Part shown: positions 604 to 30,569 of the stretch, in pieces
How positions within the stretch are numbered: the first letter of the stretch is position 1
How the letters are laid out: every line of letters begins with the position of its first letter
Virus record (IMG/VR): IMGVR_UViG_3300009537_002640
Location: 62,001 to 126,000 of that record
DNA length: 64,000 nt
Direction: 5' to 3' (one strand)
Origin: a virus
The notes under the pieces: generated by a model
Seen by the model: the letters and a program-made list of their open reading frames with translations, nothing else
Database searches by the model: none
What the model was told of the DNA's origin: nothing
Program-made: the position numbers and the translations under genes

Positions 604-1434
604 TTAATATTTTCTTAGCTTCTCTATGATGGGCTGTTCACTTACATACACAGTCTTAATCCCATCACCCAATATAGTCTCAACCTCACGAGCATCACGG
701 CACAACTTACGTAAACCGGTTGGCTCCAATGATGCTGCCTGGTCACTACCATACATTGTACGGTCTAAAGTAATGTGTCGTTCAACTACGGCTGCACCTA
801 GAGATACAGCGAGCAAAGTTGGTAATAGTCCCTTTTCATGCCCGCTGAAGCCGACGCCCTTTGAATCTGGGTATCTTTCGGTGAGAGTCTTAACAACACG
901 AATATTAGACTCCCTGATGTCGGTTGGGTATGTAGAAGTGCAATGCATAACTGTAAAAGGACACTTGTGCTTCCTAAATATTTCTACTGCATGGTCAACC
1001 TGTTCTAGGGTACTCATACCCGTAGATATATAGGTGTGCTTTCCTTCTTGAGCTACAGTCTCTAATAGCTCATCGTATGTCAAGAGCGCTGAAGCAATCT
1101 TATTAAACTCTAGGTCATACTGCTGTAAGAACTTCTGGCTTTCTAAATCCCAGGCGGATGCGCTCCATGCTATACCTTTCTCTTTACAGTATCTATCTAT
1201 CTCGTCGTATTCTTCTTTGCCAAACTCTAAGCCTTCTTTCTGCTGCCTGTTGATTGTTCCCCAAGGCGATTCGCGAGACTTATCTAGCTCTTCCTTTGTA
1301 TACACTAAATCAATAGTGCGCTTTTGAAACTTAACAGCATCACATCCTGCATCTACTGCCAGGTCGATTAGCTTCTTGGCAATTCCCAAGTCACCATTGT
1401 GATTAATGCCTATCTCGGCTATAATATAAACCAT
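604..1434 (-). CDS. NeuB-family nonulosonic acid synthase (first copy, no SAF domain)
   Basis: NeuB-family enzymes condense phosphoenolpyruvate with a hexosamine to give a 9-carbon nonulosonic acid. Family motifs along this 276-aa protein are AEIGINHNG (6-14), KFQKR, SASAWD, the KIAS-type Lys near residue 113, STGMS, MHCTSTYPT, GFSGHEKG and VVERHITLD. The last two read GYSDHT and VEKHFTLD in typical sialate/legionaminate synthases, so this copy is divergent. The protein ends at the edge of the TIM barrel and lacks the C-terminal antifreeze-like SAF domain of usual (about 340 aa) synthases. A HAD phosphatase and a NeuA lie upstream at 4.5-3.5 kb, so it may work on a 9-phosphate or related substrate (inference). 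It is distinct from the second NeuB at 12.5 kb. Confidence 0.85.
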   Translation of the reverse strand: MVYIIAEIGINHNGDLGIAKKLIDLAVDAGCDAVKFQKRTIDLVYTKEELDKSRESPWGTINRQQKEGLEFGKEEYDEIDRYCKEKGIAWSASAWDLESQKFLQQYDLEFNKIASALLTYDELLETVAQEGKHTYISTGMSTLEQVDHAVEIFRKHKCPFTVMHCTSTYPTDIRESNIRVVKTLTERYPDSKGVGFSGHEKGLLPTLLAVSLGAAVVERHITLDRTMYGSDQAASLEPTGLRKLCRDAREVETILGDGIKTVYVSEQPIIEKLRKY

Positions 1435-2320: not shown

Positions 2321-3480
2321 TATAGTTCCGCTATCACTTGATCTATAAATGTATCCTTGATTATCTCTAGCTGAGTTTTCTTGGCATCCATATTTGATTT
2401 GTAGGTTGCCAGATTATTTACAACTTCATCAATTGTATTTCTTAGGTCGGCTATATCTCCCTCGGTATCCTTATTTAGTGGGATAATCAAATTACCAAGG
2501 TCTACATCTTCTAGAAACCACTTTACCTTATTATGTTCGCCTATACCAATGGGCGGAGTGTTTTGCCCAAAAGCAATAATATTAGCATGTCCTCGCATAC
2601 CTATCACCAAGTCCATTTGATTATATATGTCTACGAACAGTCCTGCCTTGTAATCAAAGGGTGGATATAGCTCCTCAGCCATACAATCAGATACTACATA
2701 GCCATCGCTACCTAAAACGCTAGTAAATAAATCCCTCATATCTTCTTTGTCGAGCTTATTAGATTCATTGGGCATTAGGTGTTCAATCAAATACACATAA
2801 GCATTATGTTCCTGTGCTTTTTCTTTTAGCACATTGAGAGTGGTATCCAGTTTGGTCTTCGCCAAATTACTATCATTGCTCAAATCAAATCTTTGGTTCC
2901 ACCTATCTGTTGCCCAATTGAACCCTATCTTGAGCCTGTTATTATCTAAACAGCTATGAGTATAGGGATAAGCCTCCGCAAATACCGCTGCATCAGGCAC
3001 TACGGTTACATTGGTCATATCAACACCGAAGGATTCCATGGTTTCATAAGTGCCCATATTGCGCACAGAAAATGCTACGGAGTTGTTCACTACTTCTTTT
3101 ACACTATCCCACATAGACTGCGGGAAGCCCACTTGGTCATGCGGAAATTCATTATAGCCTATTCCATATACGGCTATAGGCACTGTGATACTAGCTATAT
3201 TCTCTGTGTCAATGTTGAATTGCCAACCAGAGTGACTGTTGTCTTGTGGGCGATGAAAAATAAAACCGCCGCCGCCCAGCAATAACATATCGGCCTCTGC
3301 ATTCAACTTAGCAATTATTTGAGGAGAAAAGTAAGTGTTCTGATTATCCACATATACAAAACGCAACTCTGTCCCAGCTGGTGCTCGGTCACGCATTATT
3401 TTAGTGGTGGCTATCTGTAAAGCTCTGTCGCCATAGTTGTTTGACCAGCCGCCTACATGCCATATTGTCTTAACTGTCAT
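2320..3480 (-). CDS. polysaccharide pyruvyl transferase family protein (WcaK/CsaB-like)
   Basis: This 386-aa protein shows the family's N-terminal signature, an Asn-Tyr-Gly-Asp turn at 15-18 (NYGD). It continues with a hydrophobic strand leading into the glycine run LLLGGGGFIFHR at 66-77, AVYGIGYNEFP and VVPDAAVF. The C-terminal half contains DLVIGMRGHANIIAFGQNTPPIGI, the conserved R-x-H region of this fold (shown here only as a landmark). Members transfer pyruvate from PEP to a sugar as a ketal, or act as GT-B-like glycosyltransferases. It overlaps the NeuA gene by 11 nt. Pyruvylation would add a negative charge to a glycan; the acceptor is unknown. Confidence 0.8.
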   Translation of the reverse strand: MTVKTIWHVGGWSNNYGDRALQIATTKIMRDRAPAGTELRFVYVDNQNTYFSPQIIAKLNAEADMLLLGGGGFIFHRPQDNSHSGWQFNIDTENIASITVPIAVYGIGYNEFPHDQVGFPQSMWDSVKEVVNNSVAFSVRNMGTYETMESFGVDMTNVTVVPDAAVFAEAYPYTHSCLDNNRLKIGFNWATDRWNQRFDLSNDSNLAKTKLDTTLNVLKEKAQEHNAYVYLIEHLMPNESNKLDKEDMRDLFTSVLGSDGYVVSDCMAEELYPPFDYKAGLFVDIYNQMDLVIGMRGHANIIAFGQNTPPIGIGEHNKVKWFLEDVDLGNLIIPLNKDTEGDIADLRNTIDEVVNNLATYKSNMDAKKTQLEIIKDTFIDQVIAEL

Positions 3481-4156
3481 GAATTAAAGCCTCCGCCATT
3501 GTCCAGTCTGCAGAATCATTAATGTCTACAGAAAAGTTTTTACCCATCCTGTAAGCATATACCTTTCCTTGATGAAAGCTGTTTGTCTTCTTCAAATGTT
3601 CTGCAGTAGAAACAAAAATAGAACCATTTACTACAAATAATGGTTTCTTTATATCCTGTCTTTGTACCTCAAAATTATCAACCCTAACAATAGTTTGCAT
3701 GACGCCCTCTTCATCTATCCATCGTAAACTACTGATTGGCTTATCAAACCTAGACACACTGATAACAGAATCACAGTCCTTCCTGTCTAAAAGCGTAAAA
3801 GCTGCATCAATATCTAGGTTGGTTCTCAGTGGAGATGTAGCCAATAGCATAGCTACACTCCCTATTATTATACCCTGTTCTTCGTAAAAGTTTAAGCACT
3901 CCAATACAGCGTGGACTGCATGAACATCATCTTGGGCATTCTCTTGAGAGCGCCAATGAATCTCTGCGCCATATTGCTTTGCCACTTCGGCAATCTCAGC
4001 ATCCTCTGTAGACACCACAACCCTATCAACTGTGCGCGCCGTGAGAGCAGACTGAATACTATATGCCACCAAGGGCTTCCCTGCCAACTCTTTAATGTTC
4101 TTTCGCTCGATGGCCTTAGAACCACCACGAGCAGGTATTACACACATGTTTATCAT
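3470..4156 (-). CDS. neuA: CMP-nonulosonate cytidylyltransferase (NeuA/acylneuraminate type)
   Basis: The protein (228 aa) has the diagnostic nucleotide-binding loop PARGGSKAIERKNI at 8-21, followed by GKPLVAYSIQSA, a VVVSTEDAEIA strand and LLATSPLRT with the substrate-contacting region. FVVNGSIFV and DINDSADW occur near the C terminus, as in single-domain CMP-Neu5Ac synthetases. It activates a nonulosonic acid with CTP. The start is ATG at 4156, overlapping the stop of the HAD gene; an internal ATG at 4147 is possible. A second, SpsF-type CMP-transferase sits at 10.9 kb, so the phage carries two activating enzymes. Confidence 0.9.
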   Translation of the reverse strand: MINMCVIPARGGSKAIERKNIKELAGKPLVAYSIQSALTARTVDRVVVSTEDAEIAEVAKQYGAEIHWRSQENAQDDVHAVHAVLECLNFYEEQGIIIGSVAMLLATSPLRTNLDIDAAFTLLDRKDCDSVISVSRFDKPISSLRWIDEEGVMQTIVRVDNFEVQRQDIKKPLFVVNGSIFVSTAEHLKKTNSFHQGKVYAYRMGKNFSVDINDSADWTMAEALIHDS

Positions 4157-9649: not shown

Positions 9650-10210
9650 TTATTGCCATTCCTGCAATTTGTAAAAACGGTGGGCTGCTAGATAATCCCC
9701 CTCTAAAAAATACTCTTGTGGGATAACGCAATACTCTTTGAACCCATTTCTATCTAGCACTTTAATAGAGCCTATGTTGCCTTCTACCACACCCGCTTCA
9801 ATCTTATTCATGTTGAGTCTATTGAAGCAATAATCTGAGAGAAGACTCACTACCTCGGTAGCTATACCTGCACCCCAGTAGTTTTCTTCCCCTATCATGT
9901 ATCCAACTTCTGCTCGTCTAGAAATCCAATCAATGCTATTTATAGATGTTGTCCCTATATAGTTGAGATACTCGTTGTCTTGAACTAGTGCATCCTTAAC
10001 TTTATCATAGGACAAATTGGACATCATTGCGAACCTCATTTCCCTTTGTCCATCTGGAATTGTTATTTCCTCTCTACACAAAGGTATGCGACCGGCGAAC
10101 ATATATCTATTAACCCTATGGTCATTAAGCCAATCTATGTATTTAGCAGTCACGTGACGGTCTGTGAATTTTACCAGTCTAACCTTGCTGCCCTTCAAGT
10201 ATTCCATCAC
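9650..10210 (-). CDS. GNAT acetyltransferase, RimJ/RimL type (PseH candidate)
   Basis: The 186-aa protein shows the GNAT order: an N-terminal strand (SKVRLVKFTDRH), a helix around DWLND, IGTTSINSIDW, AEVGYMIGEENYWGAGIATEVVSLLSDY (acetyl-CoA binding motif A, about 105-132) and NIGSIKVLDRNGF (motif B). PseH, which acetylates the 4-amino group of the altrosamine intermediate in pseudaminate synthesis, belongs to this class. The other Pse enzymes nearby make PseH the leading role. A GTG at 10210 or an ATG at 10207 could be the start; both overlap the stop of the 83-aa gene. Confidence 0.75.
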   Translation of the reverse strand: MMEYLKGSKVRLVKFTDRHVTAKYIDWLNDHRVNRYMFAGRIPLCREEITIPDGQREMRFAMMSNLSYDKVKDALVQDNEYLNYIGTTSINSIDWISRRAEVGYMIGEENYWGAGIATEVVSLLSDYCFNRLNMNKIEAGVVEGNIGSIKVLDRNGFKEYCVIPQEYFLEGDYLAAHRFYKLQEWQ

Positions 10211-11675: not shown

Positions 11676-12527
11676 TTAACTGCTTGTTTTGACATTATTT
11701 AAATCCTCGATAATGCTACATATTCTAGCAGAACCCCTGCCATCAATATAGCTCTTAGCGAATCTACTCAAAGACTCTCTTTTGTAACTACTCTCTAACA
11801 ATTCCTCCACATGGCCCTTAAGACGCAACATATCACTCTCTATACATCCCTCTGGAAACATTTTTATGTTAGTGAGCTGATGTTCATACTGAGGAATTGC
11901 GATTGTGGGTAGCCCGAAACACATAGCTTGTATCAGAGTAAGCCCACCGTTAGTTATTCCTATCATACAGTCTTGCATGGCGTTATAGTAGTCATCCTCA
12001 GTTAAAACCTCTACGTTCTTAAAAAACATCTTGAAATTAGAATGGTTTATACTCCTAGCCACTATCACTGGCACATCCATAGATTCTAGCATTCTGACTA
12101 CTCTGTATGCCAAATTATTAGCGTCAAAGCCTCCCATGGCAACAAATGCTGTTTTAGACTTAGTGTCCAGTCTATATGTTTCGCTATAAGAGGGCTTCGG
12201 TATAGCAAAGTACTTCGCGCCCTGATACTGTGCAAGTGGATTATAAATAGCGCTAACGCTTGCGTCTACCAACTCTACATCTTCTTCGGCACCATCTATA
12301 AGCACAACCTTTACTCCCGCAGCTTTCGCCTTAAGTATCAAGTCCCTTTGGGTGTGTATATGGTCAACTACAAGAACCTTTGCTTCTGGATTACATTCCC
12401 TATTCTGAACCCAAGATGTAACATGACCTCTGGAGGATAGTTCGCGTGCAATTTCCAATAATCTGTATAAATGCCCGGTACCTATTTCACGCTTCTCTCC
12501 ATGTTCACAAAACAAAGAAACATGCAT
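11676..12527 (-). CDS. pseG: PseG/SpsG-like UDP-sugar hydrolase
   Basis: PseG removes UDP from the 2,4-diacetamido-trideoxy sugar to release the NeuB substrate. This 283-aa protein has the catalytic region GTGHLYRLLEIARELSSRGH, with His19 in the G-x-GH-x-x-R loop of PseG. The GT-B C-terminal half contains VAMGGFDANN, GITNGGLTLIQAM and GLPTIAIPQ, matching the UDP-binding glycine-rich turns of PseG and MurG relatives. Its start codon shares a base with the stop of the NeuB gene upstream (TAATG), so the two are coupled. It provides the fourth step of the Pse pathway in this cluster. Confidence 0.85.
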   Translation of the reverse strand: MHVSLFCEHGEKREIGTGHLYRLLEIARELSSRGHVTSWVQNRECNPEAKVLVVDHIHTQRDLILKAKAAGVKVVLIDGAEEDVELVDASVSAIYNPLAQYQGAKYFAIPKPSYSETYRLDTKSKTAFVAMGGFDANNLAYRVVRMLESMDVPVIVARSINHSNFKMFFKNVEVLTEDDYYNAMQDCMIGITNGGLTLIQAMCFGLPTIAIPQYEHQLTNIKMFPEGCIESDMLRLKGHVEELLESSYKRESLSRFAKSYIDGRGSARICSIIEDLNNVKTSS

Positions 12528-13351
12528 TATGAATATCTCCTATAAGGCACTGACCCTTGTTCTATATCCTGCAACCCTATCGTACCATCTCCAAGCATTG
12601 ACTCATGTTCGCGTATGGCATCTATCATGTCTCTCATCATTCTTGGGTCAGCTGATACAGCATTATCTGGAGAGCCATCATTCAAGTCAAGCGTAAAGTG
12701 CTTTTCTACAACTGTAGCTCCCATAAATACAGATAGGGATGGGACTAAAATATCATTAGTGTGGTCACTATACCCAACCTCTATCCTTCCGTGCAATAAC
12801 CTGCGTAAAGTTTTAATTGCACTCAGGTTTACCTCATGTTCTGGTGTTGGATAAGAAGAAACGCAATGCAACACGGCCAGTGAATTTACGTCTGGCAAGC
12901 ATGTGAGTGCGCTAGAAAGCTCAGCCGGGTTAGCCATTCCAGTAGACATCACTACCTTTAGTGCCGCATATCTTTTTGCACACTCGTTAATTAGAACCAA
13001 TTGAATGCGGTTTGTTAAGTCCATAGATGCTATCTTAACCCTTCTAACCCCCAGGTCTTCAACTAAGAATGCTAAAGAGTGCTCGTCAAACGGAGTGGAA
13101 AAAAATTCAATGCCAACTTTATCAGCGTGCCACTTAACATCAGCCGTTTGCTCATAGGACAGCTCGCACCTCTTTAGAATCTCGTATGCCCCTTGAGATG
13201 GATTAGACCTAAGGTCCGCCTGATAAGTTTGAAACTTAATGGCGTCTGCCCCGGCCTCTTTGGCTGCTTCGACAAGAGCCATTGCTTTTCCAACATCACC
13301 GCCATGATTTATTCCAGCTTCTGCAATTATAAACGCTTCTTTCTGATACAT
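12527..13351 (-). CDS. NeuB/PseI/SpsE-family nonulosonic acid synthase (second copy, no SAF domain)
   Basis: The 274-aa protein has all barrel motifs of PseI/SpsE: AEAGINHGG, KFQTYQ, FFSTPFD, KIASMD, STGMA, LHCVSSYPTP, GYSDHT and VVEKHFTLD. Unlike the copy at 0.6 kb these are near-consensus. It stops at VPYRRYS, exactly where the SAF domain normally begins. I chose the ATG at 13351 because an AGAGGAG site lies directly upstream; a longer frame would run into the glmS coding region. The gene order glmS-neuB-pseG-spsF makes it the synthase of the main pathway, using PEP and the PseG product. Confidence 0.9.
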   Translation of the reverse strand: MYQKEAFIIAEAGINHGGDVGKAMALVEAAKEAGADAIKFQTYQADLRSNPSQGAYEILKRCELSYEQTADVKWHADKVGIEFFSTPFDEHSLAFLVEDLGVRRVKIASMDLTNRIQLVLINECAKRYAALKVVMSTGMANPAELSSALTCLPDVNSLAVLHCVSSYPTPEHEVNLSAIKTLRRLLHGRIEVGYSDHTNDILVPSLSVFMGATVVEKHFTLDLNDGSPDNAVSADPRMMRDMIDAIREHESMLGDGTIGLQDIEQGSVPYRRYS

Positions 13352-13362
13352 CTTCTCTCCTC

Positions 13363-15111
13363 TTACTCCACAGTTACACTTTTGGCCAAATTTCTTGGCT
13401 TGTCTATATTGCACCCGCGCAAATCAGCTACATGATATGCCAATAACTGAAGCACCACTGACGCTGTAAATACCGTGGCACTTTCGTGGTGTTCTGGTAT
13501 CTTAATGACTTTATCCACAATATGTTCTGCCAACTCATCGTTTTCGCCTACCACTGCAATTGTAAAAGCACCCCGAGCCTTTACTTCTTCAATATTGGAT
13601 AATACCTTTGGATACACATTACTGTATCTATCTGCTATAAAAATACATGGCACGTTGTGATGTATCAAAGCTATGGGGCCATGCTTTAGTTCACCAGCCG
13701 GATAAGCTTCGGCATGCACATATGAAATCTCTTTTAGTTTCAGGGCTCCCTCTTGAGCAATCGGCACTCCATAGCCCCTACCTAAAAAAAACATAGAGTT
13801 TGCATGATAGATATTTTTTGCTGCTTGCGCAATATTTTGTTCCTGTTGTAACACTTGCTCCATCAATTCTGGAACCCTATATACCCAATCCGGCAAATCC
13901 ACTAATGCATTTGCCAACATAAACAACACGGCCACTTGAGCAGTAAAAGACTTGGTTGAGGCCACACTAATCTCAGGACCAGCCCATGTACAAATACTGG
14001 CGTCAGCCTCTCGTGTCATTGTAGAACCAAGGCGATTAATTACAGTCAGAACATATACATTTTTTTCTTTTGCGAGCTTGATAGCCTCTAGAGTATCAGC
14101 GGTCTCTCCTGATTGACTTACTGCGACCATCACTACATCATCATCCAGAACTCTATTATAGTATCTAAGCTCTGATGCTAATCTAACATCACAATCTATC
14201 CCTTTCGATTCAAAATATATTTGGGCGGTTAGGCAAGCATGATAGCTGGTACCGCATGCAGTGAGCAGGATTTTCTTGTTCTGAAATTGATTCTTCTCAA
14301 CCAGTTCCATAATAGGAACCAGATTTCTTTCCCAGCATTCCCTGATAACTTCTGGTTGTTCAAAAATCTCTTTGTGCATATAGGTATCATGATTTTGATG
14401 CCCCAAGACACCAAACACATCACTCATAATACTAATCGTTTCTGCTCTTGTCTCGTTGCCATTTGCATCGTATAGTTTAATAGAGCCTGATGCAAGTTCA
14501 GCTGTTTGACCATCTTTCATCACTATAGCCTCACTGGCATGACCAATAAGCGCATAGATATCAGACGCCACCGCTGCACCTTTCTCGCAAACACCAATTA
14601 CCAGTGGAGATTGTTTACACGCCAACACTATTTTATCTGGCTCATTTGGAGACATTGCTACGAACGCATAAGAACCCTTGAGCAGTGGAAGGGTCTGTTG
14701 GAGCCGCATAAGTAATGTTCCATCGAAGCTATTAATAACACCAGCGGCTATTTCGGTGTCTGTTTGGGATACTGGATTATACCCCTCGGACAATTCTTTG
14801 TAGTTCTCTATTATCCCATTGTGTACCAATATTACATCACCCACCATATGCGGATGTGCATTAGTTTCATTCGGCTCCCCATGCGTGGCCCATCGTGTAT
14901 GACCAATAGCTATAGAAGATTTAACTGCTGTATCTAGCTTTTTGAAAAGATTAGATACCTCGCCCTTGGCTTTGATTAAGCTCACGCCATCCTCAAGCAA
15001 GTACGCTATACCCGCTGAATCATAGCCCCTATACTCCAAGGTTTTAAGCCCGTGCTTAACATTATGAATCGCATTCTTAGCGTCACTAATGAAGCCTACT
15101 ATTCCACACAT
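13363..15111 (-). CDS. glmS: glutamine:fructose-6-phosphate aminotransferase (isomerizing)
   Basis: The complete 582-aa enzyme starts MCGIVGF, with the N-terminal Cys2 nucleophile of the glutaminase domain (about 1-220) and RGYDSAG and GHTRWATHG motifs. Two SIS isomerase domains follow, with ACGTSYHA, VSQSGETADT and STKSFTAQ, and it ends with the classical DKPRNLAKSVTVE tail that closes the active site. It makes glucosamine-6-phosphate, precursor of UDP-GlcNAc, the substrate of PseB. A phage copy would lift the precursor pool during infection. Length is slightly below the E. coli 609 aa. A GAGGT site precedes the ATG. Confidence 0.95.
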   Translation of the reverse strand: MCGIVGFISDAKNAIHNVKHGLKTLEYRGYDSAGIAYLLEDGVSLIKAKGEVSNLFKKLDTAVKSSIAIGHTRWATHGEPNETNAHPHMVGDVILVHNGIIENYKELSEGYNPVSQTDTEIAAGVINSFDGTLLMRLQQTLPLLKGSYAFVAMSPNEPDKIVLACKQSPLVIGVCEKGAAVASDIYALIGHASEAIVMKDGQTAELASGSIKLYDANGNETRAETISIMSDVFGVLGHQNHDTYMHKEIFEQPEVIRECWERNLVPIMELVEKNQFQNKKILLTACGTSYHACLTAQIYFESKGIDCDVRLASELRYYNRVLDDDVVMVAVSQSGETADTLEAIKLAKEKNVYVLTVINRLGSTMTREADASICTWAGPEISVASTKSFTAQVAVLFMLANALVDLPDWVYRVPELMEQVLQQEQNIAQAAKNIYHANSMFFLGRGYGVPIAQEGALKLKEISYVHAEAYPAGELKHGPIALIHHNVPCIFIADRYSNVYPKVLSNIEEVKARGAFTIAVVGENDELAEHIVDKVIKIPEHHESATVFTASVVLQLLAYHVADLRGCNIDKPRNLAKSVTVE

Positions 15112-16141: not shown

Positions 16142-17368
16142 TTATCTCCTGTAAAACTTCAGAACTTTCCTTACTGCTTCTATTACATCTGTCACGTCCT
16201 GGTCAGTTAATTTAGAGGACAGTGGTAACGAGATTGTTCTGTCTGAAACCCATTGTGCATTGGGGAAATCTTTTGCTGTCCAACCATAAGTCTTAGTATA
16301 ATAAGGGTGCGTGTGAATTGCCTGATAATGAACCCCTACACCAATACCCTCTTCTTTTAGTGCACCTAGGACAAAATCTCTATTAACCCTAAGTTGGTCT
16401 AACTTCAACTCAATAGTATATAGATGGTGCCCATGCTTAATGTTAGAGGGGTATTCGGCTGGAGTATATAGTGGTAATCCAGACAGCTGCTCGTTGTATT
16501 GTCTCCATATATGATTTCTGCGTTGCCACGACGCTTCGATGCGTTGTAACTGGCAAACACCTATTGACGCCACCAAGTCCATCATATTGTACTTAAAACC
16601 AGGAGCCAGCACTTTGTAGTGTTGGAAACCTTCTGCACCATAACGATTATGGGCATTCCTAGATAACCCATGTAGAGACATCATTCTGACTTCTTTCTCA
16701 ATCTCCTCGTTATCTGTAATCAGCATTCCTCCCTCGCCACAAGAGATGTTCTTAGTGACATAGAAAGAGAACGCACCAACATCTCCAAACGTACCGGCAT
16801 GTTTTCCGTCTATAGTGGTCTCTATGGCATGAGCACAATCCTCTATAACATACAGACTGTATCGTTTGGCTATCTCTGTTATTGGCTCCATATCACATGG
16901 CATCCCACACATGTGAACTGGAATGATAGCCTTGGTGCGTGGAGTTATCTTAGATTCGATTTGCTTCCAATCAATGTTCTGTGTCTTGCGACTAATATCA
17001 CAAAGCACAGGCTTCAACCCACTGTGAACGATAGAAGATATGGTCGCAGTGAATGTAAGGTCTGTGCTTATTACCTCATCGCCAGGTTGAAGGCCCAGTG
17101 ACACAAGAGCAAGATGTAGCGCAGCAGTACAAGAGGAGGTTCCGACTGCATACTTACTTCCTTTGTATGCAGAGAACAGCTTCTCAAATGCTATGGTTTT
17201 TGGACCAGTACTTAACCATCCCGACTTTAATGTGTTAACCACTTCATCGATTTCCGGCTGTTGTATATCAGGGCTACCAAAGACTAGAAAATTCTGTCTA
17301 ACTGGTGTCCCGCCCTCAACGGCTGGAATACTATTGGTCACTGTTTTCGGTGCTACGCTAAAACTCAT
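16142..17368 (-). CDS. DegT/DnrJ/EryC1/StrS sugar aminotransferase (PseC-like)
   Basis: The 408-aa protein has the sugar aminotransferase signature: GTSSCTAALHLAL for phosphate binding, IEDCAHA with Asp177 for the PLP ring, and SFYVTKNISCGEGGM with Lys206 as the PLP lysine. The end is FPNAQWVSDRTISLPLS, common to DegT/ArnB/PseC. It would aminate the C4 keto group of the PseB product, giving the 4-amino sugar acetylated by the PseH candidate. The residues distinguishing PseC from LegC or ArnB cannot be read by eye. It lies 1-2 nt from both neighbours. Confidence 0.85.
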   Translation of the reverse strand: MSFSVAPKTVTNSIPAVEGGTPVRQNFLVFGSPDIQQPEIDEVVNTLKSGWLSTGPKTIAFEKLFSAYKGSKYAVGTSSCTAALHLALVSLGLQPGDEVISTDLTFTATISSIVHSGLKPVLCDISRKTQNIDWKQIESKITPRTKAIIPVHMCGMPCDMEPITEIAKRYSLYVIEDCAHAIETTIDGKHAGTFGDVGAFSFYVTKNISCGEGGMLITDNEEIEKEVRMMSLHGLSRNAHNRYGAEGFQHYKVLAPGFKYNMMDLVASIGVCQLQRIEASWQRRNHIWRQYNEQLSGLPLYTPAEYPSNIKHGHHLYTIELKLDQLRVNRDFVLGALKEEGIGVGVHYQAIHTHPYYTKTYGWTAKDFPNAQWVSDRTISLPLSSKLTDQDVTDVIEAVRKVLKFYRR

Positions 17369-17369: not shown

Positions 17370-18314
17370 TTACTTTATATACTCCGCATAATGTGTTAGG
17401 AACGATCCTACGTTCTCATGTTTTTTGATAACTAAAGGAAAGAGCAAAGATTCAGCTTCATCCATAGTAAGGTTTCTTTCAAACTTAACTCTTCTTCCGT
17501 AGCCGCCTGGTTTAATCTGCTTCTTCCAATGACTAAACCTATAGTAAGCCGAAAAGAATGCCCACCTGTCTTCTGGTGAGATTGCCCTAATGTCACTCAC
17601 CTTAAACTCCACAGGCTCAACTAAGCGTTTCGCCAAGTCTGAGTTTCTTACTATCTTTCTCAGCAAGCCTCTTCGCCTGCTACTATTTTGCAAATCTTTA
17701 GCACTATATCCAAGACAACTATACTTATCAGTGTCTCTTAGTACAGCCTTAAGCTTTTCATTCTTAAGTCCTTGTGGGACAAAGCCAACAAACTCTCTAA
17801 GTATTGGTGGTGCTATAACATCTGCAGAATATTGAATCAGCTTCAATGGGTCTACTCTACCTGCCGCAAGATGCTTCTTGACCATCTTCTTATAGGTAGT
17901 CTTGGTAAAATATTTCTGGTCGCCGTATCTTGATCCATACTTATACGTGTGGCTCCATTGCCTATCGCTCTTACTATATGCGCATGAAAAAGATTTGATG
18001 AGCATATCGCCGAATTTCTTTTGCACAGACTTTGGAAACTTATCAATGATAGCATCTGTAAAGATGATATTCGAGTCTCCCATGCCATATGTTTTATTCT
18101 CGCTGTCGCTTAGCATTTTCTCCATTCTAGATGTAAGCAAATCGAACAGCTGCTCTTTGTCTTTTTTTCGTGCGCCTTCATAAAGCGCTAACCACTCTTG
18201 GTTGCTAAAACTAATATCGCTTTCATATGCAGATATGAAGTCCATAAAAACCTGTGGTGATTTCTTATACATCTTAACCAGGGATTGTGTTCCCCCTTGA
18301 AAATCAAAACTCAT
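17370..18314 (-). CDS. hypothetical protein (314 aa)
   Basis: I do not recognise this protein. It is basic, mostly helical by appearance, with an Arg/Ser-rich middle (SSRRRGLLRKIVR near 210) and many Tyr/Lys pairs around 125-150. No signal peptide, membrane segment or nucleotide loop is visible. It is embedded between pseC-like and pseB-fusion genes, so it probably serves the same pathway or is an acceptor/virion-linked protein made in the same operon. Two base pairs separate it from the aminotransferase. Confidence 0.55.
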   Translation of the reverse strand: MSFDFQGGTQSLVKMYKKSPQVFMDFISAYESDISFSNQEWLALYEGARKKDKEQLFDLLTSRMEKMLSDSENKTYGMGDSNIIFTDAIIDKFPKSVQKKFGDMLIKSFSCAYSKSDRQWSHTYKYGSRYGDQKYFTKTTYKKMVKKHLAAGRVDPLKLIQYSADVIAPPILREFVGFVPQGLKNEKLKAVLRDTDKYSCLGYSAKDLQNSSRRRGLLRKIVRNSDLAKRLVEPVEFKVSDIRAISPEDRWAFFSAYYRFSHWKKQIKPGGYGRRVKFERNLTMDEAESLLFPLVIKKHENVGSFLTHYAEYIK

Positions 18315-18327: not shown

Positions 18328-18570
18328 TTATATCTTATATTTATCTATGAATGAATTAGTGTCTTTCGTTTCTAGACAACTGCTACCTCTAGTCCAGTTG
18401 CCATCTCCCGTATATATGTTTATACCCCAAATGTCCTCGCCACTTAAAGCGTCAACCACTTTATTGGAGCGATAAATATAAGTAATTTTTCCATTACCAT
18501 CATTCTGCCCACCAGTAATAGGCGGCTTTAGTGTCCACTGATAAAGAAACTGAAGAACCGGGTCAATCAT
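18328..18570 (-). CDS. small hypothetical protein (80 aa)
   Basis: This 80-aa protein is not recognised. It is aromatic- and Gly/Asn-rich in the middle (GGQNDGNGK, YTGDGNW). Its start ATG overlaps the stop of the MerR-PseB fusion gene by 4 nt, supporting translation. Like the 83-aa gene at 10.2 kb it begins with MIDP, and both lie directly downstream of a sugar-nucleotide enzyme, but the similarity is too short to call them paralogues. Confidence 0.55.
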   Translation of the reverse strand: MIDPVLQFLYQWTLKPPITGGQNDGNGKITYIYRSNKVVDALSGEDIWGINIYTGDGNWTRGSSCLETKDTNSFIDKYKI

Positions 18571-19715
18571 TCGTCAAACCCTCTAAGTTCATCTGCGGTA
18601 AATTGCTCAACATTGTCAGATGTATATTCGAATGATTCTACCTTTGGCTCATCAGGATAGCTAATATCCCACCCAAGACTTCTGTCAGTAACTCCTGGCG
18701 GAACAATCTTGTAATACTTGCCACAGTCTACGGTGTACAATACCTCTGTCTTTGATATCAGGTCTTCATGTATCTTCTCGTAACCCCTCAGCCCAATGAA
18801 CTCTACAGGGATGCCGGGAGCAAATGTTTCAGCAAACGCCATAATGCTTGTGGCTTTAAGCTTGGGTATGAATATCTCGCCGCCTATTGTGTTGTTAAGG
18901 GCAAACAGATTTAGATTAACCGCTTCATCCATTGACATAAAGAATCTGGTCATATCTTTGTGCGTAACTTTAACTTCGCCTTCTTTAGCCTGCTGTTCAA
19001 ACAATTGTCTCACAGAACCATTGGAACCATAAACGTTTCCATATCTTGTGCAAGTAAAGACTGTCCCATTTTTGCCAGAATAATTGTTGCCGTTGATAAA
19101 TACTTGTTCAGCAACAAACTTTGTTCCACCATACAAGGTGGCTGGCGCACAGGCTTTATCTGTAGAAACCAGAAGCGCCTTACCTACGTTGTTCTCTATA
19201 CAGGACTCTAAAACATTCACGCTTCCTATTACATTGCTCTTCACAGCTTCAATTGGATTATAAGTGCAGGTTTCCACTCGCTTCATACAGGCAGCATGAA
19301 TACAAACATCCACACCACGCAAAGCTCGCTCTAATCTTTTCCTATCCCTTATATCACCTATCAAATATCGTATGTTTATCTTGTCGGAAAACTTGGCTCT
19401 CATTCTTGCCTGCTTTAATTCACAGCGACTAAAGATGATAACCTTCTTAGCCACGTCAACTATACGCTCTGTTAAAGCATGTCCAAGAGAACCCGTGCCA
19501 CCAGTGATAAGCACAACTTTCCCACGAACGGCGTCTAGATCAGAACCGTCTCGTTTGTATTTAGTCTTTCCTGACATTTCAAGGAACTGGTCATGCGTAT
19601 AGAACATACGCCCAGAAGGTTTGCGTTGGGCTACAAGTTTGCCTTCCTTGTCCCAGTTTCGCAAGGTTTGAACAGAAACCCCAAGTTTTTCAGCCATTTC
19701 AGTTGTCGAATACAC
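18567..19715 (-). CDS. pseB: MerR-type HTH fused to PseB-like UDP-GlcNAc 4,6-dehydratase
   Basis: The 382-aa protein has two parts. Residues 1-47 are a MerR-family winged helix (TTEMAEKLGVSVQTLRNWD, then GKL and a wing ending FYTHDQF). Residues 66-382 are a complete inverting 4,6-dehydratase with cofactor loop TGGTGSLG (71-78), CIHAACMKRV, YNPIEA, and catalytic Asp186-Lys187 with Tyr195-xxx-Lys199. RYGNVYGS and an FEYTSDNVEQF tail match Campylobacter PseB. The first step of pseudaminate synthesis is therefore tied to a DNA-binding module. The start is GTG at 19715, six bases after AGGAGG. A MerR-style promoter lies just upstream, suggesting autoregulation (inference). No frameshift separates the domains. 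Confidence 0.85.
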   Translation of the reverse strand: MYSTTEMAEKLGVSVQTLRNWDKEGKLVAQRKPSGRMFYTHDQFLEMSGKTKYKRDGSDLDAVRGKVVLITGGTGSLGHALTERIVDVAKKVIIFSRCELKQARMRAKFSDKINIRYLIGDIRDRKRLERALRGVDVCIHAACMKRVETCTYNPIEAVKSNVIGSVNVLESCIENNVGKALLVSTDKACAPATLYGGTKFVAEQVFINGNNYSGKNGTVFTCTRYGNVYGSNGSVRQLFEQQAKEGEVKVTHKDMTRFFMSMDEAVNLNLFALNNTIGGEIFIPKLKATSIMAFAETFAPGIPVEFIGLRGYEKIHEDLISKTEVLYTVDCGKYYKIVPPGVTDRSLGWDISYPDEPKVESFEYTSDNVEQFTADELRGFDE

Positions 19716-19730
19716 GGATGTCCTCCTATA

Positions 19731-19748
19731 TAATATGCCATCATATTA
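19731..19748. repeat. inverted repeat in the leader of the MerR-PseB gene
   Basis: TAATATG (19731-19737), a 4-nt spacer CCAT and CATATTA (19742-19748) form a perfect 7-bp inverted repeat. It lies between the predicted transcription start and the ribosome binding site of the MerR-PseB gene. It could be an operator or, in RNA, a short AU hairpin next to the AGGAGG site. Confidence 0.45.
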
Positions 19749-19774: not shown

Positions 19775-19805
19775 ATTATGACACAAATGTATAAAAATGT
19801 GTTAA
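19775..19805 (-). promoter_or_regulatory. candidate MerR-type promoter of the MerR-PseB gene
   Basis: On the minus strand, -35 TTAACA (19805-19800) and -10 CATAAT (19780-19775) are separated by 19 bp. That long spacer is typical of MerR-activated promoters rather than the usual 17 bp. The spacer holds a dyad with ACACA and TGTGT arms (19781-19785 and 19798-19802; 8 of 11 base pairs match). The -35 overlaps the stop codon of the preceding glycosyltransferase gene. Support is sequence pattern only. Confidence 0.5.
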
Positions 19806-20893
19806 GATAGAATGTCTTTTACTATAGCCTGAGAGCTGTTGGGGGGAGTCATTCCGACATATTGAGACAACCAGTCTTCTATTGCTAGACCGTCTGGCTG
19901 GGGCGGGATTAGTTGAAAGTCCGGAGATAGTGCTTCTTCTTGACTCACACTCCAGACGGCCTCTCTAAAGTTATACACTGGGCTTTCAAAGTAATCTTTC
20001 ATCTTCTTCTTATCATGAGACCAGCGCTTGAGGTTCAGAGGGATATTCACCACATGTTTACCTGCTACCATACACTCATAGATACCCGAGCTATAGAACA
20101 TGACTACACAATGAGTTTCAGCAAAGGCTCCAGAAATTGACGGCGGATACATTTTGTCGCCGTCATCTATTATCAAAGCACCATACTTCTTTAGCTCATC
20201 CGGCATCCATTGTTTCTTGCGCGTTTTGAATATTAGATGGTGCTCGTTACCTCTGCAGATATTATCCATCATCTTTAGGAAATTGTCTTTTCCCCCAAAA
20301 GCAATCTGGACATGCTCTGCTAAAAGATTCGGCAGCAATACTAATAGCCCTGGCCTTGGAACAATATCTGACCTAAGCCCGTCATAAATAGGGGAGCCTA
20401 ACCACTTATCACGCTTCGGGTCTAGCTTTAGCCCGAGCATATCAAGGTGCAGATTCATTAGATGTTGAGATGAATAATAGACACGATCACATGACGTGAT
20501 ATTTTTAGGGTCGGGAGTCCACAAAGAATCCGTAAGGTAAAGGATATTGTAAATCCCAATATTGTTTTTCTTCAGTTCGTTTATGTAGTCTTTGGCCCAC
20601 AAGTAAACCTCAAGACTTACCAGTTTAGTTATCTTATCATGAACCAATTGTTTGAGGAGTTGATTATCATTACCAAACGCTTTTACTTTAGCGGCATTGG
20701 CAACAACCCCTGGGGACGATAGTTTTAGCTTAGCCAAACTTGCTCGATTGTATTCTTTACTGCCTCGCGGAGCATCAAAGTGGTATAGGACATAGGGTGC
20801 ACCTGTCCTGTGAAGTTCCTCCATTATAGGATGGAGAACCTTTAGAAATGTTAATTCTCTAACTACTACTCCGATCATCGGCTGTGTATCCAT
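19802..20893 (-). CDS. GT-B-like transferase of the CDP-glycerol transferase type
   Basis: The 363-aa protein has an N-terminal alpha/beta domain and a C-terminal donor-binding half. The latter shows HLIFKTRKKQW, LIIDDGDKMYPP, VVMFYSSGIYECMVAGKHVVNIPL, an arrangement like the GT-B capsule and teichoic-type enzymes at 5.3-7.5 kb. Family assignment is by layout only. It is the last glycosyltransferase before the sugar-synthesis operon. Its stop codon overlaps the predicted -35 of the MerR-PseB promoter. No membrane anchor is present. Confidence 0.5.
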   Translation of the reverse strand: MDTQPMIGVVVRELTFLKVLHPIMEELHRTGAPYVLYHFDAPRGSKEYNRASLAKLKLSSPGVVANAAKVKAFGNDNQLLKQLVHDKITKLVSLEVYLWAKDYINELKKNNIGIYNILYLTDSLWTPDPKNITSCDRVYYSSQHLMNLHLDMLGLKLDPKRDKWLGSPIYDGLRSDIVPRPGLLVLLPNLLAEHVQIAFGGKDNFLKMMDNICRGNEHHLIFKTRKKQWMPDELKKYGALIIDDGDKMYPPSISGAFAETHCVVMFYSSGIYECMVAGKHVVNIPLNLKRWSHDKKKMKDYFESPVYNFREAVWSVSQEEALSPDFQLIPPQPDGLAIEDWLSQYVGMTPPNSSQAIVKDILS

Positions 20894-21020
20894 ATTTCAG
20901 AAACCCTGCATATATAATTCCTATGTCATAGGGTTTGTATTTTTTCTTCTTCAGTGAATCGTAAAACATCCAATGAAATGTTGGGCCATAAACACCGGGC
21001 TGCACAAAATATTTAGCCAT
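20859..21020 (-). CDS. micro-protein (53 aa), member of a tandem small-protein group
   Basis: A 53-aa frame fills what would otherwise be a 119-nt gap. Its ATG at 21020 overlaps the stop of the next small gene (ATGGCTAA), and it ends at TAG 20859 inside the start of the GT-B gene. The C-terminal half has DIGIIYAGFLKYG, matching DIYSAYTFILKYG in the neighbouring 65-aa protein. That agreement is the main argument that it is a real gene. Confidence 0.5.
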   Translation of the reverse strand: MAKYFVQPGVYGPTFHWMFYDSLKKKKYKPYDIGIIYAGFLKYGYTADDRSSS

Positions 21021-21210
21021 CTACATGCCATCCGTATTTCAATATAAAGGTATATGCCGAATAGATATCATCTTGGCTACACGTACCCTTATTAATTCTA
21101 TCTATAACATCATGTTTCCATAGATGCTTGAGAAATGTCATATCTTCTCTAAACTGAATATCTCTTATGGCTTTACGCTGAGCCGCTGCAACTAAATCTA
21201 TCACATCCAC
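21013..21210 (-). CDS. small protein (65 aa) of the tandem group
   Basis: This 65-aa helical protein is unrecognised. Its C-terminal third, DIYSAYTFILKYGW, resembles the end of the 53-aa micro-protein just downstream and, more loosely, DIRELYIGALKSKG of the 44-aa frame at 21.5 kb. It overlaps both adjacent small genes. No enzymatic motif is visible. Confidence 0.55.
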   Translation of the reverse strand: MDVIDLVAAAQRKAIRDIQFREDMTFLKHLWKHDVIDRINKGTCSQDDIYSAYTFILKYGWHVDG

Positions 21211-21488
21211 ACCACATGCCTATTGTAATCTACCAATCTATCATCAATGTGTGCGGGTCTACGACGGGCAACCTTTCCACACTTATTACATATTACATCT
21301 GTTTGAGCAAAACCATATTCCATATAACCAGAAGGGATAACTTCAAAACAGTGCCAATCATGCCAGCACAAAAACTTTCCACGCTCTATCCTGTGCTTTT
21401 TGTGATATTCCACTGCCCACCTCAAATCAGCTGGCTTTATTTTACCTTGACATAGAAAGTACTTATATAGTATTATTTTGTTAAGCAT
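21201..21488 (-). CDS. small putative zinc-binding protein (95 aa)
   Basis: The 95-aa basic protein carries one clear Cys pair, CNKCGK (about 68-73), and further His/Cys candidates (CWHDWHC near 41-47) that could complete a zinc site. Such zinc-ribbon micro-proteins are common in large phages. It overlaps the 65-aa gene downstream by 10 nt. The function is unknown. Confidence 0.55.
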   Translation of the reverse strand: MLNKIILYKYFLCQGKIKPADLRWAVEYHKKHRIERGKFLCWHDWHCFEVIPSGYMEYGFAQTDVICNKCGKVARRRPAHIDDRLVDYNRHVVWM

Positions 21489-21607
21489 GTTATCTTGCCT
21501 TTTGACTTAAGTGCCCCAATATACAATTCTCGTATGTCACTAAAACTTACATCATCCATACACTCTGCCATCAACAAACATAAGTACGCATGTTTGAACA
21601 AAACATT
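21473..21607 (-). CDS. micro-protein (44 aa), possible third member of the tandem group
   Basis: A 44-aa frame occupies the 129-nt gap between the GT-A gene and the 95-aa gene. The ATG at 21607 has only a weak GGGTGAT site upstream. Its residues DVSFSDIRELYIGALKSKG resemble the DI-x-x-x-Y-x-x-x-[IL]-K motif of the other two small proteins. It overlaps the start of the 95-aa gene by 16 nt. Confidence 0.35.
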   Translation of the reverse strand, partial: NVLFKHAYLCLLMAECMDDVSFSDIRELYIGALKSKGKITCLTK

Positions 21608-21617
21608 ATACTGTATA

Positions 21618-22367
21618 TCACCCAGCATCTAACACGCCTCTAGCTACCTTCTTCCACTCTTCCAATTGTTCTGCTGGGTGCTTAAAGCCTTTACGGATTG
21701 CTTTACCGCCTAGATTGCTACCTCTACCAAAGTGAGCTAACACAGGTTCACCATCTACCCAAAACTCATCTGACTGAAATCTTGAATCGAAATATGCACC
21801 GTCGCCAGTTTTGCAATCTACGAATTCCATAGGCTTAACTTGGTCAGGTCTTACATAGTTGCGCAACTGCCAGCCTACATCCTCGTGTGCTTTGTATGGC
21901 CTGTTGGAACGATTCTTATCCTTACCTGGACGAAAATCAATGGTAGTTCCATGACGCAACAGGCGCGAACTGCCTACCAAAAAACAAACATGATAAAAAG
22001 GTTGTCCTGCTAAATCTCCCTTTTTAGCTGCCAGAAGCTTGTGCTTAGAGAAATCTAAATCACCCCAGCCTTTCTTTAAGATGATACAATCGGACTCTAT
22101 TATGGCAAACTTAGGGGTGGTAACAAAATCGAAAGCCGCGTTGAGACCTTCGCCATGACGATTACTCCCACCATGCAGTGCGGGTTCATGTGAAAATATC
22201 ATAATGTTTGGATCATTAGCATACTTATCCAACACATCTTTATTATTGCCATTGTCACATATAACAAAGTGGGGACACGGATCGGTAAACTTTTTGACCG
22301 ATTCAATCATCAGGTCTATTAGTCCAGCATCATTCTCTACAACGGTTACTACTGTTAGGTCTGTCAT
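21618..22367 (-). CDS. GT-A glycosyltransferase
   Basis: The 249-aa protein begins TVVTVVENDAGLIDLMIESV, the GT2/GT-A opening strand and helix. FVICDNGNN follows, and IIESDCIILKKGWGDLDF near residue 90 has ESD in the place of the metal-binding DxD motif. A late EDVGW (about 167-171) could supply the catalytic base. It is soluble and shorter than the other GT2 members here. The acceptor is unknown. Confidence 0.7.
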   Translation of the reverse strand: MTDLTVVTVVENDAGLIDLMIESVKKFTDPCPHFVICDNGNNKDVLDKYANDPNIMIFSHEPALHGGSNRHGEGLNAAFDFVTTPKFAIIESDCIILKKGWGDLDFSKHKLLAAKKGDLAGQPFYHVCFLVGSSRLLRHGTTIDFRPGKDKNRSNRPYKAHEDVGWQLRNYVRPDQVKPMEFVDCKTGDGAYFDSRFQSDEFWVDGEPVLAHFGRGSNLGGKAIRKGFKHPAEQLEEWKKVARGVLDAG

Positions 22368-22368
22368 A

Positions 22369-22671
22369 TTACACCTTGTCTGCTAGCTCTGCCAGAATAT
22401 CACCATGACAGGGCGCATCTGGATTAGCCTTTGTCTTGCACCAGCAGCCTAGCACCTTTCCTTTAAGCTCTGGCAATCTTTCTAATAGGTCTGGCCTGGA
22501 CATGATATACTCTCGGTATTTGTCAACCGCCTCTTCCACACTGGCTACTTTTTGCTTAGCCCATGTTCCATCTTTATGAGTATATGGATTTCCCCATACA
22601 CTACCTCTACCTCGCCCAATATAAACATCATACTCTTCCTGCATACAGTGAACTACTTTAGTCTTACTCAT
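22369..22671 (-). CDS. DUF4326-family protein
   Basis: The 100-aa protein matches the DUF4326 pattern: DVYIGRGRGSVWGNPY near 15-30, then a helical middle (YREYIM), then LKGKVLGCWCKTKANPDAPCHGD with the conserved CWC and CHGD. The family is widespread in phages and its function is unknown; the Cys/His set suggests metal or nucleotide binding. It overlaps the next upstream gene by 8 nt. Confidence 0.85.
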   Translation of the reverse strand: MSKTKVVHCMQEEYDVYIGRGRGSVWGNPYTHKDGTWAKQKVASVEEAVDKYREYIMSRPDLLERLPELKGKVLGCWCKTKANPDAPCHGDILAELADKV

Positions 22672-22915
22672 TTCCTACTCCCGACAGTTCTTTTACTAGT
22701 ACTTCTTTTTTACAGTCTTCTAGGTGTTTACTTAAACCATCTATAATGAATTTAAGTGCCTCTATCTTTTCTTGTGCGGTCATATATCGATTTTGATTAT
22801 TGGACGTGAGAATAGCAGAAACCATAAATGTCCCAACATCATCATCAAGTCTACCTTTAGTACAACTCAATTCCAAGGCATATGTGTTATAATACTTCTT
22901 TTCACTTAATGTCAT
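22664..22915 (-). CDS. small hypothetical protein (83 aa)
   Basis: This protein is not recognised. The start is ATG at 22915: a GGGG site lies 6 nt upstream, and the ATGA overlap with the 69-aa gene's stop supports it over a TTG four codons earlier. It is mostly helical, with no membrane segment, and lies between the DUF4326 gene and a Lys/Arg-rich small gene. Confidence 0.55.
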   Translation of the reverse strand: MTLSEKKYYNTYALELSCTKGRLDDDVGTFMVSAILTSNNQNRYMTAQEKIEALKFIIDGLSKHLEDCKKEVLVKELSGVGNE

Positions 22916-23121
22916 CGTCTTCCCCAATACTTAGCCATCTCTTTTTGAAAAGCATCTGGGCCTGCATACCGCTTACAGCGTCGCTTAAGGTCTCCATAAA
23001 AATACTTCCTAGCTATTTTTCTAGTTTTAGGGCTTGTCTTACACACGGCACCTAATGGCACCCAATCATCACCAAGCAAAGCATAATACAATATTCTAGT
23101 TAGTGTTAGTGGTATTGTCAT
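22912..23121 (-). CDS. small basic hypothetical protein (69 aa)
   Basis: The 69-aa protein is strongly basic in its second half (KTRKIARKYFYGDLKRRCKR). It overlaps both neighbours by 4 nt. A nucleic-acid or polyanion contact is possible but nothing more can be claimed. Confidence 0.5.
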   Translation of the reverse strand: MTIPLTLTRILYYALLGDDWVPLGAVCKTSPKTRKIARKYFYGDLKRRCKRYAGPDAFQKEMAKYWGRR

Positions 23122-24113
23122 AACCCCAAAGCCTTTAGATATTTATCCGTCATCTTCTCGATTGATAGTTCATTAATAGCGTGTTTACGAGCTGCTGCAC
23201 TCATCACGCTTAAATCTTGCTTGATTATTTCTTCAGTTCCATCTGCCAGTTTCTGTATATACTCTGCTCCATAATCCCAATGCCCGGTAGGAACTATAAT
23301 CCCTGTTTCTTTGTCTTTCACCATATCCGTGTTGCCGCCCCAAGATGGGATGACAACCGGCAGCCCACAAGCCTGAGCCTCTGCTATCACATTATCAGAA
23401 CTAGAACCCTGTCGAGGTCCAAGGAAAATATCCCCGTGCCCATACAGAGCAGTAAGTTTGGTATTAGGTGATGCGCCCAGATACCTTACGTTGCGATCAT
23501 TACTATACGGACTAAGCACCTTAGCACAGTGCCCGTCCATAGTTCCAGCTAAAATCAGAGCAACTTTATGCCCTCGGTTCTTAAGTTCATTATACACTCC
23601 TACAAGGGATTCCATCAAGTAAGAATCGCGCATTTTTCCTACATGCATTAAATTGATGAAACCATCTGATGGGCGGTCTAAAGGCTTGAATAGATTGGTA
23701 TCTACGCCATTATGTATGACCGACCAATTAGAATCTTCTCTGGGGCAAATCTCTTCATCTATTCTTTCTTTCGACCAATTAGATTGATAAACTACATGAT
23801 GAACATTAGGTATATCACTGGCGAGCTTTGTATGAAGAGCAGTCATATCAGGGCGAATGGGTCTGTTAAACTTCTTATTATACTCCTGGTTATATATACC
23901 ATCTATACGCAATAATAGTTTTGTCTTAGCATCTTTACAATATCTGCGAAACTTTCCTGTTTCAATAATACATATGGCGGCGTCAGCTCGTTGTGGCTTG
24001 TCATAAACCACAGTATGCCCGCGCTTCTGCAGCTCTCGTGCCGTCTTATAAACAAAAGTAACAGGGCCTCCGCCACCTGTGCTACCTGGATGATTGAAAC
24101 AAATAATTGCCAT
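23118..24113 (-). CDS. GT4-family glycosyltransferase
   Basis: The 331-aa GT-B enzyme starts with a glycine-rich loop STGGGGPVTFVYKTARELQKRGH (shown as a landmark). It has VIHNGVDTNLFKP between domains. The C-terminal donor site is GSSSDNVIAEAQACGLPVVIP (about 238-258), where Glu246 starts the E-x7-E-like GT4 motif. It is a retaining-type transferase by family. It overlaps the small basic gene by 4 nt. No membrane anchor is present. Confidence 0.8.
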   Translation of the reverse strand: MAIICFNHPGSTGGGGPVTFVYKTARELQKRGHTVVYDKPQRADAAICIIETGKFRRYCKDAKTKLLLRIDGIYNQEYNKKFNRPIRPDMTALHTKLASDIPNVHHVVYQSNWSKERIDEEICPREDSNWSVIHNGVDTNLFKPLDRPSDGFINLMHVGKMRDSYLMESLVGVYNELKNRGHKVALILAGTMDGHCAKVLSPYSNDRNVRYLGASPNTKLTALYGHGDIFLGPRQGSSSDNVIAEAQACGLPVVIPSWGGNTDMVKDKETGIIVPTGHWDYGAEYIQKLADGTEEIIKQDLSVMSAAARKHAINELSIEKMTDKYLKALGL

Positions 24114-24118
24114 AGTTC

Positions 24119-24322
24119 TTACCTCGGAAGTAAATCCTTTCCCTTTTCATCGCACCTTTTTATGAAGTCCGCCACAGAATCCTTTTCGGTACTATACTTA
24201 TTAAAATACAGTCTTCCCATTCTCTTGCTTAGAAAATTGTATATCCACTGAAGCCTAAACCCCATATCCTTACCTAAGTAACACCTATAAACATAATCTG
24301 TGTCATTTAGTTTTCTTGCCAT
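24119..24322 (-). CDS. small hypothetical protein (67 aa)
   Basis: This unrecognised 67-aa basic protein is rich in aromatic residues. A strong AAGGAGGGG site four bases before the ATG at 24322 makes it real despite a 20-nt overlap with the end of the GT2 gene upstream. Confidence 0.6.
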   Translation of the reverse strand: MARKLNDTDYVYRCYLGKDMGFRLQWIYNFLSKRMGRLYFNKYSTEKDSVADFIKRCDEKGKDLLPR

Positions 24323-25106
24323 CTTGCCCCTCCTTTTTCAGAATAGGAGCGGTGATAACATCATCAAAGTGCTGTGTTACTATCTTAGGCTCTTTGTATG
24401 GTATGTACACTTTATTAGTTCTCTTGTACTTAAGCTCGTTATCTCCTACCTTCTGATATGCCTTTGATTTTGCTGAGTGACTAAACCTCTTTAGTGCCTC
24501 GTATGCCTTGTTCGATCTTGGGTCTATGTGTTTACCCATTGGCTCTATATACATACTTCTTAGTCTCAATCTCTTGATGCGGATGTACATATCACAATCT
24601 TCGCCGCCATATACAAAGTCTGGAGAATAAAATCCTACTTGGTCAAATACATCGCGGCGCATAAATAAGCAGCCACCGCCAAGATTACCAGACTTAATCT
24701 GCATCTTAACGCCATCTACTTCTTTAACAGGATAGCGTTTGCTCTCAACATTAATGCCAGTTATGCCCAGCCTCTCAATCTTAGTGCAAGCTTCAATTAG
24801 CTTTACGTCGTATTCGTCAGGAACCAAAATGTCATCGTCTATGGTCATCAAGTAATCGCCAGTAGCTTCTTTCAACCCGCTGTTCCTTCCACCAGCCACT
24901 CCGAAGTTACTTTTGTTGAACACCTTAATAACACGCTTTGTATTAGCATTGCCTGTTACGGTTTCTAGATATTCACGAGTACCATCTATGGAGCCATTAT
25001 CAACCAAGATAAGCTCATGTGGCACAGTGGTTTTCAGCTTTAGATGGTGAATTGTCTTCTTGCTCAACTCCCTTCTATTGTAATTGAGAACGATAATTGA
25101 CAGCAT
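24303..25106 (-). CDS. GT2 glycosyltransferase (paralogue of the gene at 26.6-27.4 kb)
   Basis: The 267-aa GT-A enzyme has SIIVLNYNR, LILVDNGSIDGT, GVAGGRNSGL and TIDDDILVPDE, with DDD as the metal site (about 93-95). GNLGGGCLFMRRDVF and GGEDCDMYIRIK (Glu-Asp catalytic region) follow, then a basic tail of about 60 residues. It aligns along nearly its full length with the GT2 gene at 26.6 kb, indicating a tandem duplication. It may act on a related sugar linkage in the same glycan. Confidence 0.85.
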   Translation of the reverse strand: MLSIIVLNYNRRELSKKTIHHLKLKTTVPHELILVDNGSIDGTREYLETVTGNANTKRVIKVFNKSNFGVAGGRNSGLKEATGDYLMTIDDDILVPDEYDVKLIEACTKIERLGITGINVESKRYPVKEVDGVKMQIKSGNLGGGCLFMRRDVFDQVGFYSPDFVYGGEDCDMYIRIKRLRLRSMYIEPMGKHIDPRSNKAYEALKRFSHSAKSKAYQKVGDNELKYKRTNKVYIPYKEPKIVTQHFDDVITAPILKKEGQDGKKTK

Positions 25107-25110
25107 AACA

Positions 25111-25878: not shown

Positions 25879-25899
25879 TTCTTCTCCTCAAAACTAAAT

Positions 25900-25928: not shown

Positions 25929-25936
25929 GCACTATA

Positions 25937-26125: not shown

Positions 26126-26136
26126 GTTAGACCTCC

Positions 26137-26571: not shown

Positions 26572-26573
26572 TC

Positions 26574-29693: not shown

Positions 29694-29710
29694 TGCATCT
29701 CACCCTCCTG

Positions 29711-30562: not shown

Positions 30563-30569
30563 ACTAACC

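Follow-up and report, generated by a model that had tools for sequence, protein, structure and literature searches.

Why would a phage sugar-nucleotide dehydratase carry a DNA-binding domain at its N-terminus? The question is raised by IMG/VR record IMGVR_UViG_3300009537_002640, which comes from a large, uncultured tailed phage, and specifically by the window analysed here, a stretch of 64,000 nucleotides covering positions 62,001 to 126,000 of that record. The original prediction described a gene in this window as a MerR-type winged helix (residues 1-47) joined to a complete PseB dehydratase (residues 66-382). We find that the fusion is real at the sequence level. What is new here is that its DNA-binding domain, judged by its relatives, is of the type that IS607-family transposases carry at their N-terminus.

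The reading frame and its domains

The features of the gene, all on the minus strand, are as follows.

18567..19715, minus: gene for the HTH-PseB fusion of 382 aa, starting at GTG (ORF listing, genome search; Pfam, PHROGs, NCBIfam)
19722..19727, minus: Shine-Dalgarno AGGAGG, 6 nt 5' of the GTG (sequence)
19572..19715, minus: residues 1-48, MerR-superfamily winged helix of IS607 TnpA type (PF00376; 48-56% identity to IS607 TnpA HTHs; fold match)
19524..19571, minus: linker, residues 49-64, partly of low confidence, with 51-54 below pLDDT 50 (AlphaFold2)
18576..19523, minus: residues 65-380, PseB/FlaA1-type UDP-GlcNAc 4,6-dehydratase with T185-D186-K187, Y195 and K199 (PF02719, TIGR03589, 2gn4, conservation)

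The domain limits, 1-48 and 65-380, agree with those first proposed. Both domains lie in one frame that runs without a break from 19715 to 18567 (ORF listing, genome search), while the plus strand of the same interval has many stops. The HTH thus shares the frame of the enzyme; a separate frame would have counted against the original prediction. Translation of both as one protein is very probable, since AGGAGG precedes the GTG and no Shine-Dalgarno-like site accompanies either of the internal ATGs by the domain boundary (M37 and M47).

These observations also bear on whether an assembly chimera or a mis-called start has joined two unrelated pieces. Such an artefact would account for the fusion being seen in one record only, bearing in mind that the searches may omit very near records. 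We think it most improbable, given the single open frame with its ribosome-binding site ahead of the HTH, the similar GC content of the HTH part (45%) against the enzyme part and the window (42% each), and the lack of any IS607 element elsewhere in the record with which to mis-join.

A DNA-binding domain of the IS607 kind

Pfam MerR (PF00376) matches residues 4-39 over its cut-off (E=3e-10), and structure prediction agrees in giving a winged helix. The AlphaFold2 model of the whole protein, built from 37 sequences (mean pLDDT 88.7), has helices at 4-11 and 15-23, a wing, a helix at 41-47 and then the Rossmann enzyme. Modelled alone, the HTH (pLDDT 81.9) has the HiNmlR-DNA and RacA-DNA complexes as its top fold matches (E about 4e-4 to 1e-3). 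In the AlphaFold2 model a linker, partly of low confidence, leads from the HTH into the Rossmann domain, with no sign of an intervening MerR-type dimerisation helix.

The nearest relatives of residues 1-57 in three collections are largely the N-termini of IS607-family transposases: at 56% and 48% identity in IMG/VR, at 52% among phage records, and at 55% among plasmids. By this measure the domain is closer to the HTHs of IS607 transposases than to ligand-sensing MerR regulators, so that the MerR assignment stands for the fold but not for the classical regulator class. The DNA-binding domain of IS607 is itself described as a member of the MerR family, a winged helix that has a short linker (PMC4058570). 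The likeness to the IS607-family TnpA N-terminal domain extends over 48 residues, the winged-helix layout and the linker to an alpha/beta enzyme domain. The fusion differs in that Pfam detects no serine-recombinase domain in it and its wing arginine is replaced; in addition, no TnpB C-terminal domain, serine recombinase or other MerR domain is found in the 206-kb record. With the classical MerR regulators (MerR, SoxR, BmrR, HiNmlR) it shares the HTH fold and perhaps, if the candidate described below is one, a 19-bp-spaced promoter with a dyad, but it has neither their antiparallel coiled-coil dimerisation helix nor that family's effector domain.

The recognition-helix stretch, TLRNWDKEGKL, is identical in two IS607 transposases, and the DNA-contacting residues therefore look maintained. 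The wing is less orthodox, as the conserved arginine (GxRxY) is absent: position 37 is methionine where 15 of 20 IS607 HTHs have arginine, and position 36 is arginine. The lost wing arginine could be taken to mean that the HTH serves oligomerisation or protein contacts and not DNA, a role that the identity of its recognition helix to that of the transposases makes very unlikely.

As for the donor, the same HTH module turned up in a wider scan at 31 phage loci that were inspected. About 18 of these are transposases, and the others are HTH proteins standing alone or HTHs followed by a short C-terminus of unknown type; in none of the 31 was an SDR enzyme joined to it. Most likely, then, the donor was either an IS607 transposase or a stand-alone HTH mini-protein of the same type carried by phages, two sources that a module of only 48 residues does not distinguish. 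Transposases are not its only setting: three phage contigs (L208, L209 and L210, at 2501) encode the same IS607-type HTH joined to a short C-terminal domain of unknown type. A further locus, L170 (G041:C7:25913-26476), has an IS607-type match within a 782-codon open frame and may be a larger fusion.

To our knowledge no HTH-PseB fusion has been described, a statement that draws on sequence searches rather than on a literature search. Other such fusions were looked for with a bridging DNA pattern, running from W[DE]xxGx[hydrophobic] to GGTG[ST]xG with 104-164 bases between them. Its HTH half recognises 14 of 20 IS607 HTHs and its PseB half 77 of 82 phage PseBs, which puts its sensitivity at roughly 66% for linkers within range. 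In the window its one match is the fusion gene. Over IMG/VR it gave 5 matches, all by chance, and a slightly stricter form gave 38 matches in 84,980 genomes with no real fusion among them, in collections that may omit records very close to the one analysed here. One candidate, L023, proved to be a MerR protein without PseB.

Protein-level searches agree. None of the 80 closest phage PseBs has an N-terminal HTH, the top 50 of a viral fold search include no comparable HTH-dehydratase, and when genomes of two phyla, 300 and 399 in number, were searched by protein (one search covering matches at E<=1e-70 only), no open-frame match extended into residues 1-28. A genome match extending to residue 9 is interrupted by four stops; phage matches H3 and H4, which start at residue 6, are full-length CapD-type proteins of 605 aa and not HTH fusions; and matches from residue 29-31 (L072, L074 and L077) have a start codon just ahead of the Rossmann domain, with non-HTH read-through upstream. 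Incomplete fragments of related phages, recognised by a sheath-like protein 41-73% identical, have neither the MerR domain nor a PseB of the fusion's type. The architecture thus appears to be a singleton.

This rarity is one ground for the main rival to a regulatory role, namely a neutral or recent domain capture in which recombination spliced the HTH onto a PseB, leaving a normal enzyme and an HTH with no regulatory part to play. The lost wing arginine fits such a capture, as does the phage contig L002, which has a similar short cluster (GNAT-PseB-DegT-NeuB-SpsF) whose PseB has no HTH. Against it, the recognition helix is intact in a module that Pfam still recognises as MerR, and the gene start and ribosome-binding site precede the HTH. 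We regard neutral capture as possible, if rather doubtful.

The dehydratase and its pathway

Is the other half still an enzyme? Pfam Polysacc_synt_2 (PF02719) matches residues 68-337 at E=5e-80, and the best NCBIfam match is PseB (TIGR03589), in which residues 65-375 span profile positions 4-317 of 324; its 337.9 bits lie below the curated cut-off of 407.75, which makes the domain PseB-like but divergent. The FnlA profile scores lower, at 227 bits. The solved homologue FlaA1 (2gn4), an inverting UDP-GlcNAc 4,6-dehydratase, matches residues 65-372 by sequence (E=2.5e-74) and the predicted fold at TM 0.89. The GGTGxxG NAD(P) motif is present (G72-G78).

The claim that all catalytic residues are present holds for S184, T185, D186, K187, Y195 and K199, but the surrounding conservation is less complete than it implied. 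Substitutions occur at PseB columns conserved at >=95% (A143C, E151T, T160S and G312Y), a number of departures with which the fusion protein ties for the most in a set of 76 homologues that takes in FlaA1 and CapE, and position 232 is asparagine where 33 of 34 relatives have arginine. The dehydratase is thus likely to be active, possibly with different substrate details, although changes at several near-invariant PseB residues keep activity from being certain. Measured against PseB/FlaA1, the domain is alike in sequence, fold, T-D-K/Y/K set and pathway context, and the protein is unlike in its N-terminal HTH, its sub-cut-off score and its five unusual substitutions.

Those five changes would also suit a DNA-binding protein with other targets in host or phage DNA, or a sensor whose enzyme half is inactive in the manner of Rex or NmrA. 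Rex has a winged helix N-terminal to a Rossmann NAD(H)-sensing domain, an arrangement that the fusion resembles in placing its winged helix ahead of a Rossmann nucleotide-binding domain, but Rex is unrelated to PseB and does not act as an enzyme. Both versions are improbable in our view, as the catalytic T-D-K, Y and K are retained and the other steps of the pathway require a PseB, for which the 206-kb record offers no strong match besides the fusion gene.

That pathway is laid out downstream. After an 86-bp gap comes a tight run headed by the fusion gene, in which the genes that follow, as far as 11676, overlap or stand <=13 bp apart. The run contains a PseC-like aminotransferase, an SDR, GlmS, NeuB and a PseG-like protein; beyond it lie a CMP transferase, a GNAT, a PseF-like protein and a second NeuB. 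The assigned genes are these.

16142..17368, minus: DegT/PseC-like sugar-nucleotide aminotransferase (PF01041 1e-122; PseC TIGR03588 342 bits)
13363..15111, minus: GlmS, glutamine--fructose-6-phosphate transaminase (above cut-off, NCBIfam)
12527..13414, minus: NeuB/PseI-like nonulosonate synthase 1 (PF03102, TIGR03569/TIGR03586)
11676..12527, minus: PseG-like UDP-sugar hydrolase (TIGR03590 3e-14, below cut-off)
9650..10210, minus: GNAT acetyltransferase, candidate PseH (PF13302)
3470..4156, minus: PseF-like CMP-pseudaminic acid cytidylyltransferase (TIGR03584 148 bits, below cut-off)
604..1434, minus: NeuB/PseI-like nonulosonate synthase 2 (Pfam/TIGRFAM-type profiles)

Across 604-20893 of the window the Pse-type enzymes score under their curated cut-offs and GlmS over its own. 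From these matches, the phage looks as if it encodes a nearly complete pathway for pseudaminic or a related nonulosonic acid, one that includes a GlmS of its own and a pair of NeuB-like synthases. The neighbours at 17370-18314 and 16142-17368 have no kin that we found in IMG/VR. Within the run, the proteins of 17370-18314 and 18328-18570 have no family match.

Possible autoregulation and the upstream gap

The reading that we tentatively favour, while holding it somewhat short of probable, is that the protein is a trigger enzyme, an active dehydratase that would also autoregulate its operon. The HTH would have been gained from one of the two donors named above. The enzyme half would make the first committed intermediate, converting UDP-GlcNAc to a UDP-4-keto-6-deoxy sugar. 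FlaA1 is oligomeric, and PseB-type oligomerisation would pair two HTHs and so replace the missing MerR dimerisation helix. The paired HTHs would bind dyads in the 86-bp gap 5' of their own start and repress or activate the operon, and occupancy by UDP-sugar or NADP(H) could possibly shift their spacing. The fuller proposal is that, through the captured transposase-type domain, the first pathway enzyme itself switches transcription of the pathway in response to its occupancy by nucleotide-sugar or NADP(H). As it stands, this seems to us rather unlikely.

BirA is a precedent for a trigger enzyme, combining a winged helix with a biotin ligase. It is similar in having an N-terminal DNA-binding domain on a pathway enzyme, beside genes to be controlled; its enzyme and HTH families are unrelated to those of the fusion, for which regulation is inferred only.

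The gap contains two candidate sites.

19731..19748, no strand assigned: dyad TAATATG-N4-CATATTA, just upstream of the ribosome-binding site, possible operator (single occurrence in the 204 kb read)
19775..19805, minus: MerR-like promoter candidate TTAACA - 19 bp - CATAAT, with an ACACA-N12-TGTGT dyad centred at 14.5 (sequence, shuffles)

A dyad as good as the first arises in 436 of 3000 shuffles of the gap (14.5%). The second dyad likewise occurs once in the 204 kb read, and it partly overlaps the stop codon of the upstream gene. Known MerR-type promoters have a dyad centred within a promoter of 19-20 bp spacing, and the candidate's combination of promoter and dyad arose in 90 of 100000 mononucleotide shuffles (0.09%), by a criterion chosen after the site was seen, which makes it a lead and not a result. 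A comparable dyad accompanies 2 of the 21 N19 sites in the record, the candidate being one of the two. A sigma-70 scan of the region gave fewer promoter-like sites than shuffles did, and no Rfam family was found near the fusion gene. As regulatory sites for the fusion protein, the dyads and the N19 promoter are suggestive. The position of the gene, first in a tight run after a gap with dyads, fits autoregulation, which we consider the most natural reading, unproven and with neutral capture close behind. The original interpretation is in this way partly supported, in the architecture, in its apparent absence elsewhere and in this fit; the sensing of UDP-GlcNAc or NAD(P) that it also put forward is a possibility.

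Should the protein bind the DNA upstream of its gene, we would know of no earlier sugar-nucleotide dehydratase that doubles as a transcription factor. It would also be a clear example of a metabolic enzyme in a phage that has taken up a DNA-binding domain of the mobile-element type, and would point to a way for phages to control a costly glycan pathway. Failing DNA binding, the fusion documents the ready shuffling of such modules in phages.

Beyond the gap, many glycosyltransferase-like genes lie between the tail genes and the sugar operon (19802-31506), and 19802-20893 and 21618-22367 have no Pfam match. The protein encoded at 61482-63938, which we read as sheath-like, is without a match in 50,697 phage records; its relatives, 41-73% identical, are found in 8 IMG/VR contigs, one of them of 406,470 bases.
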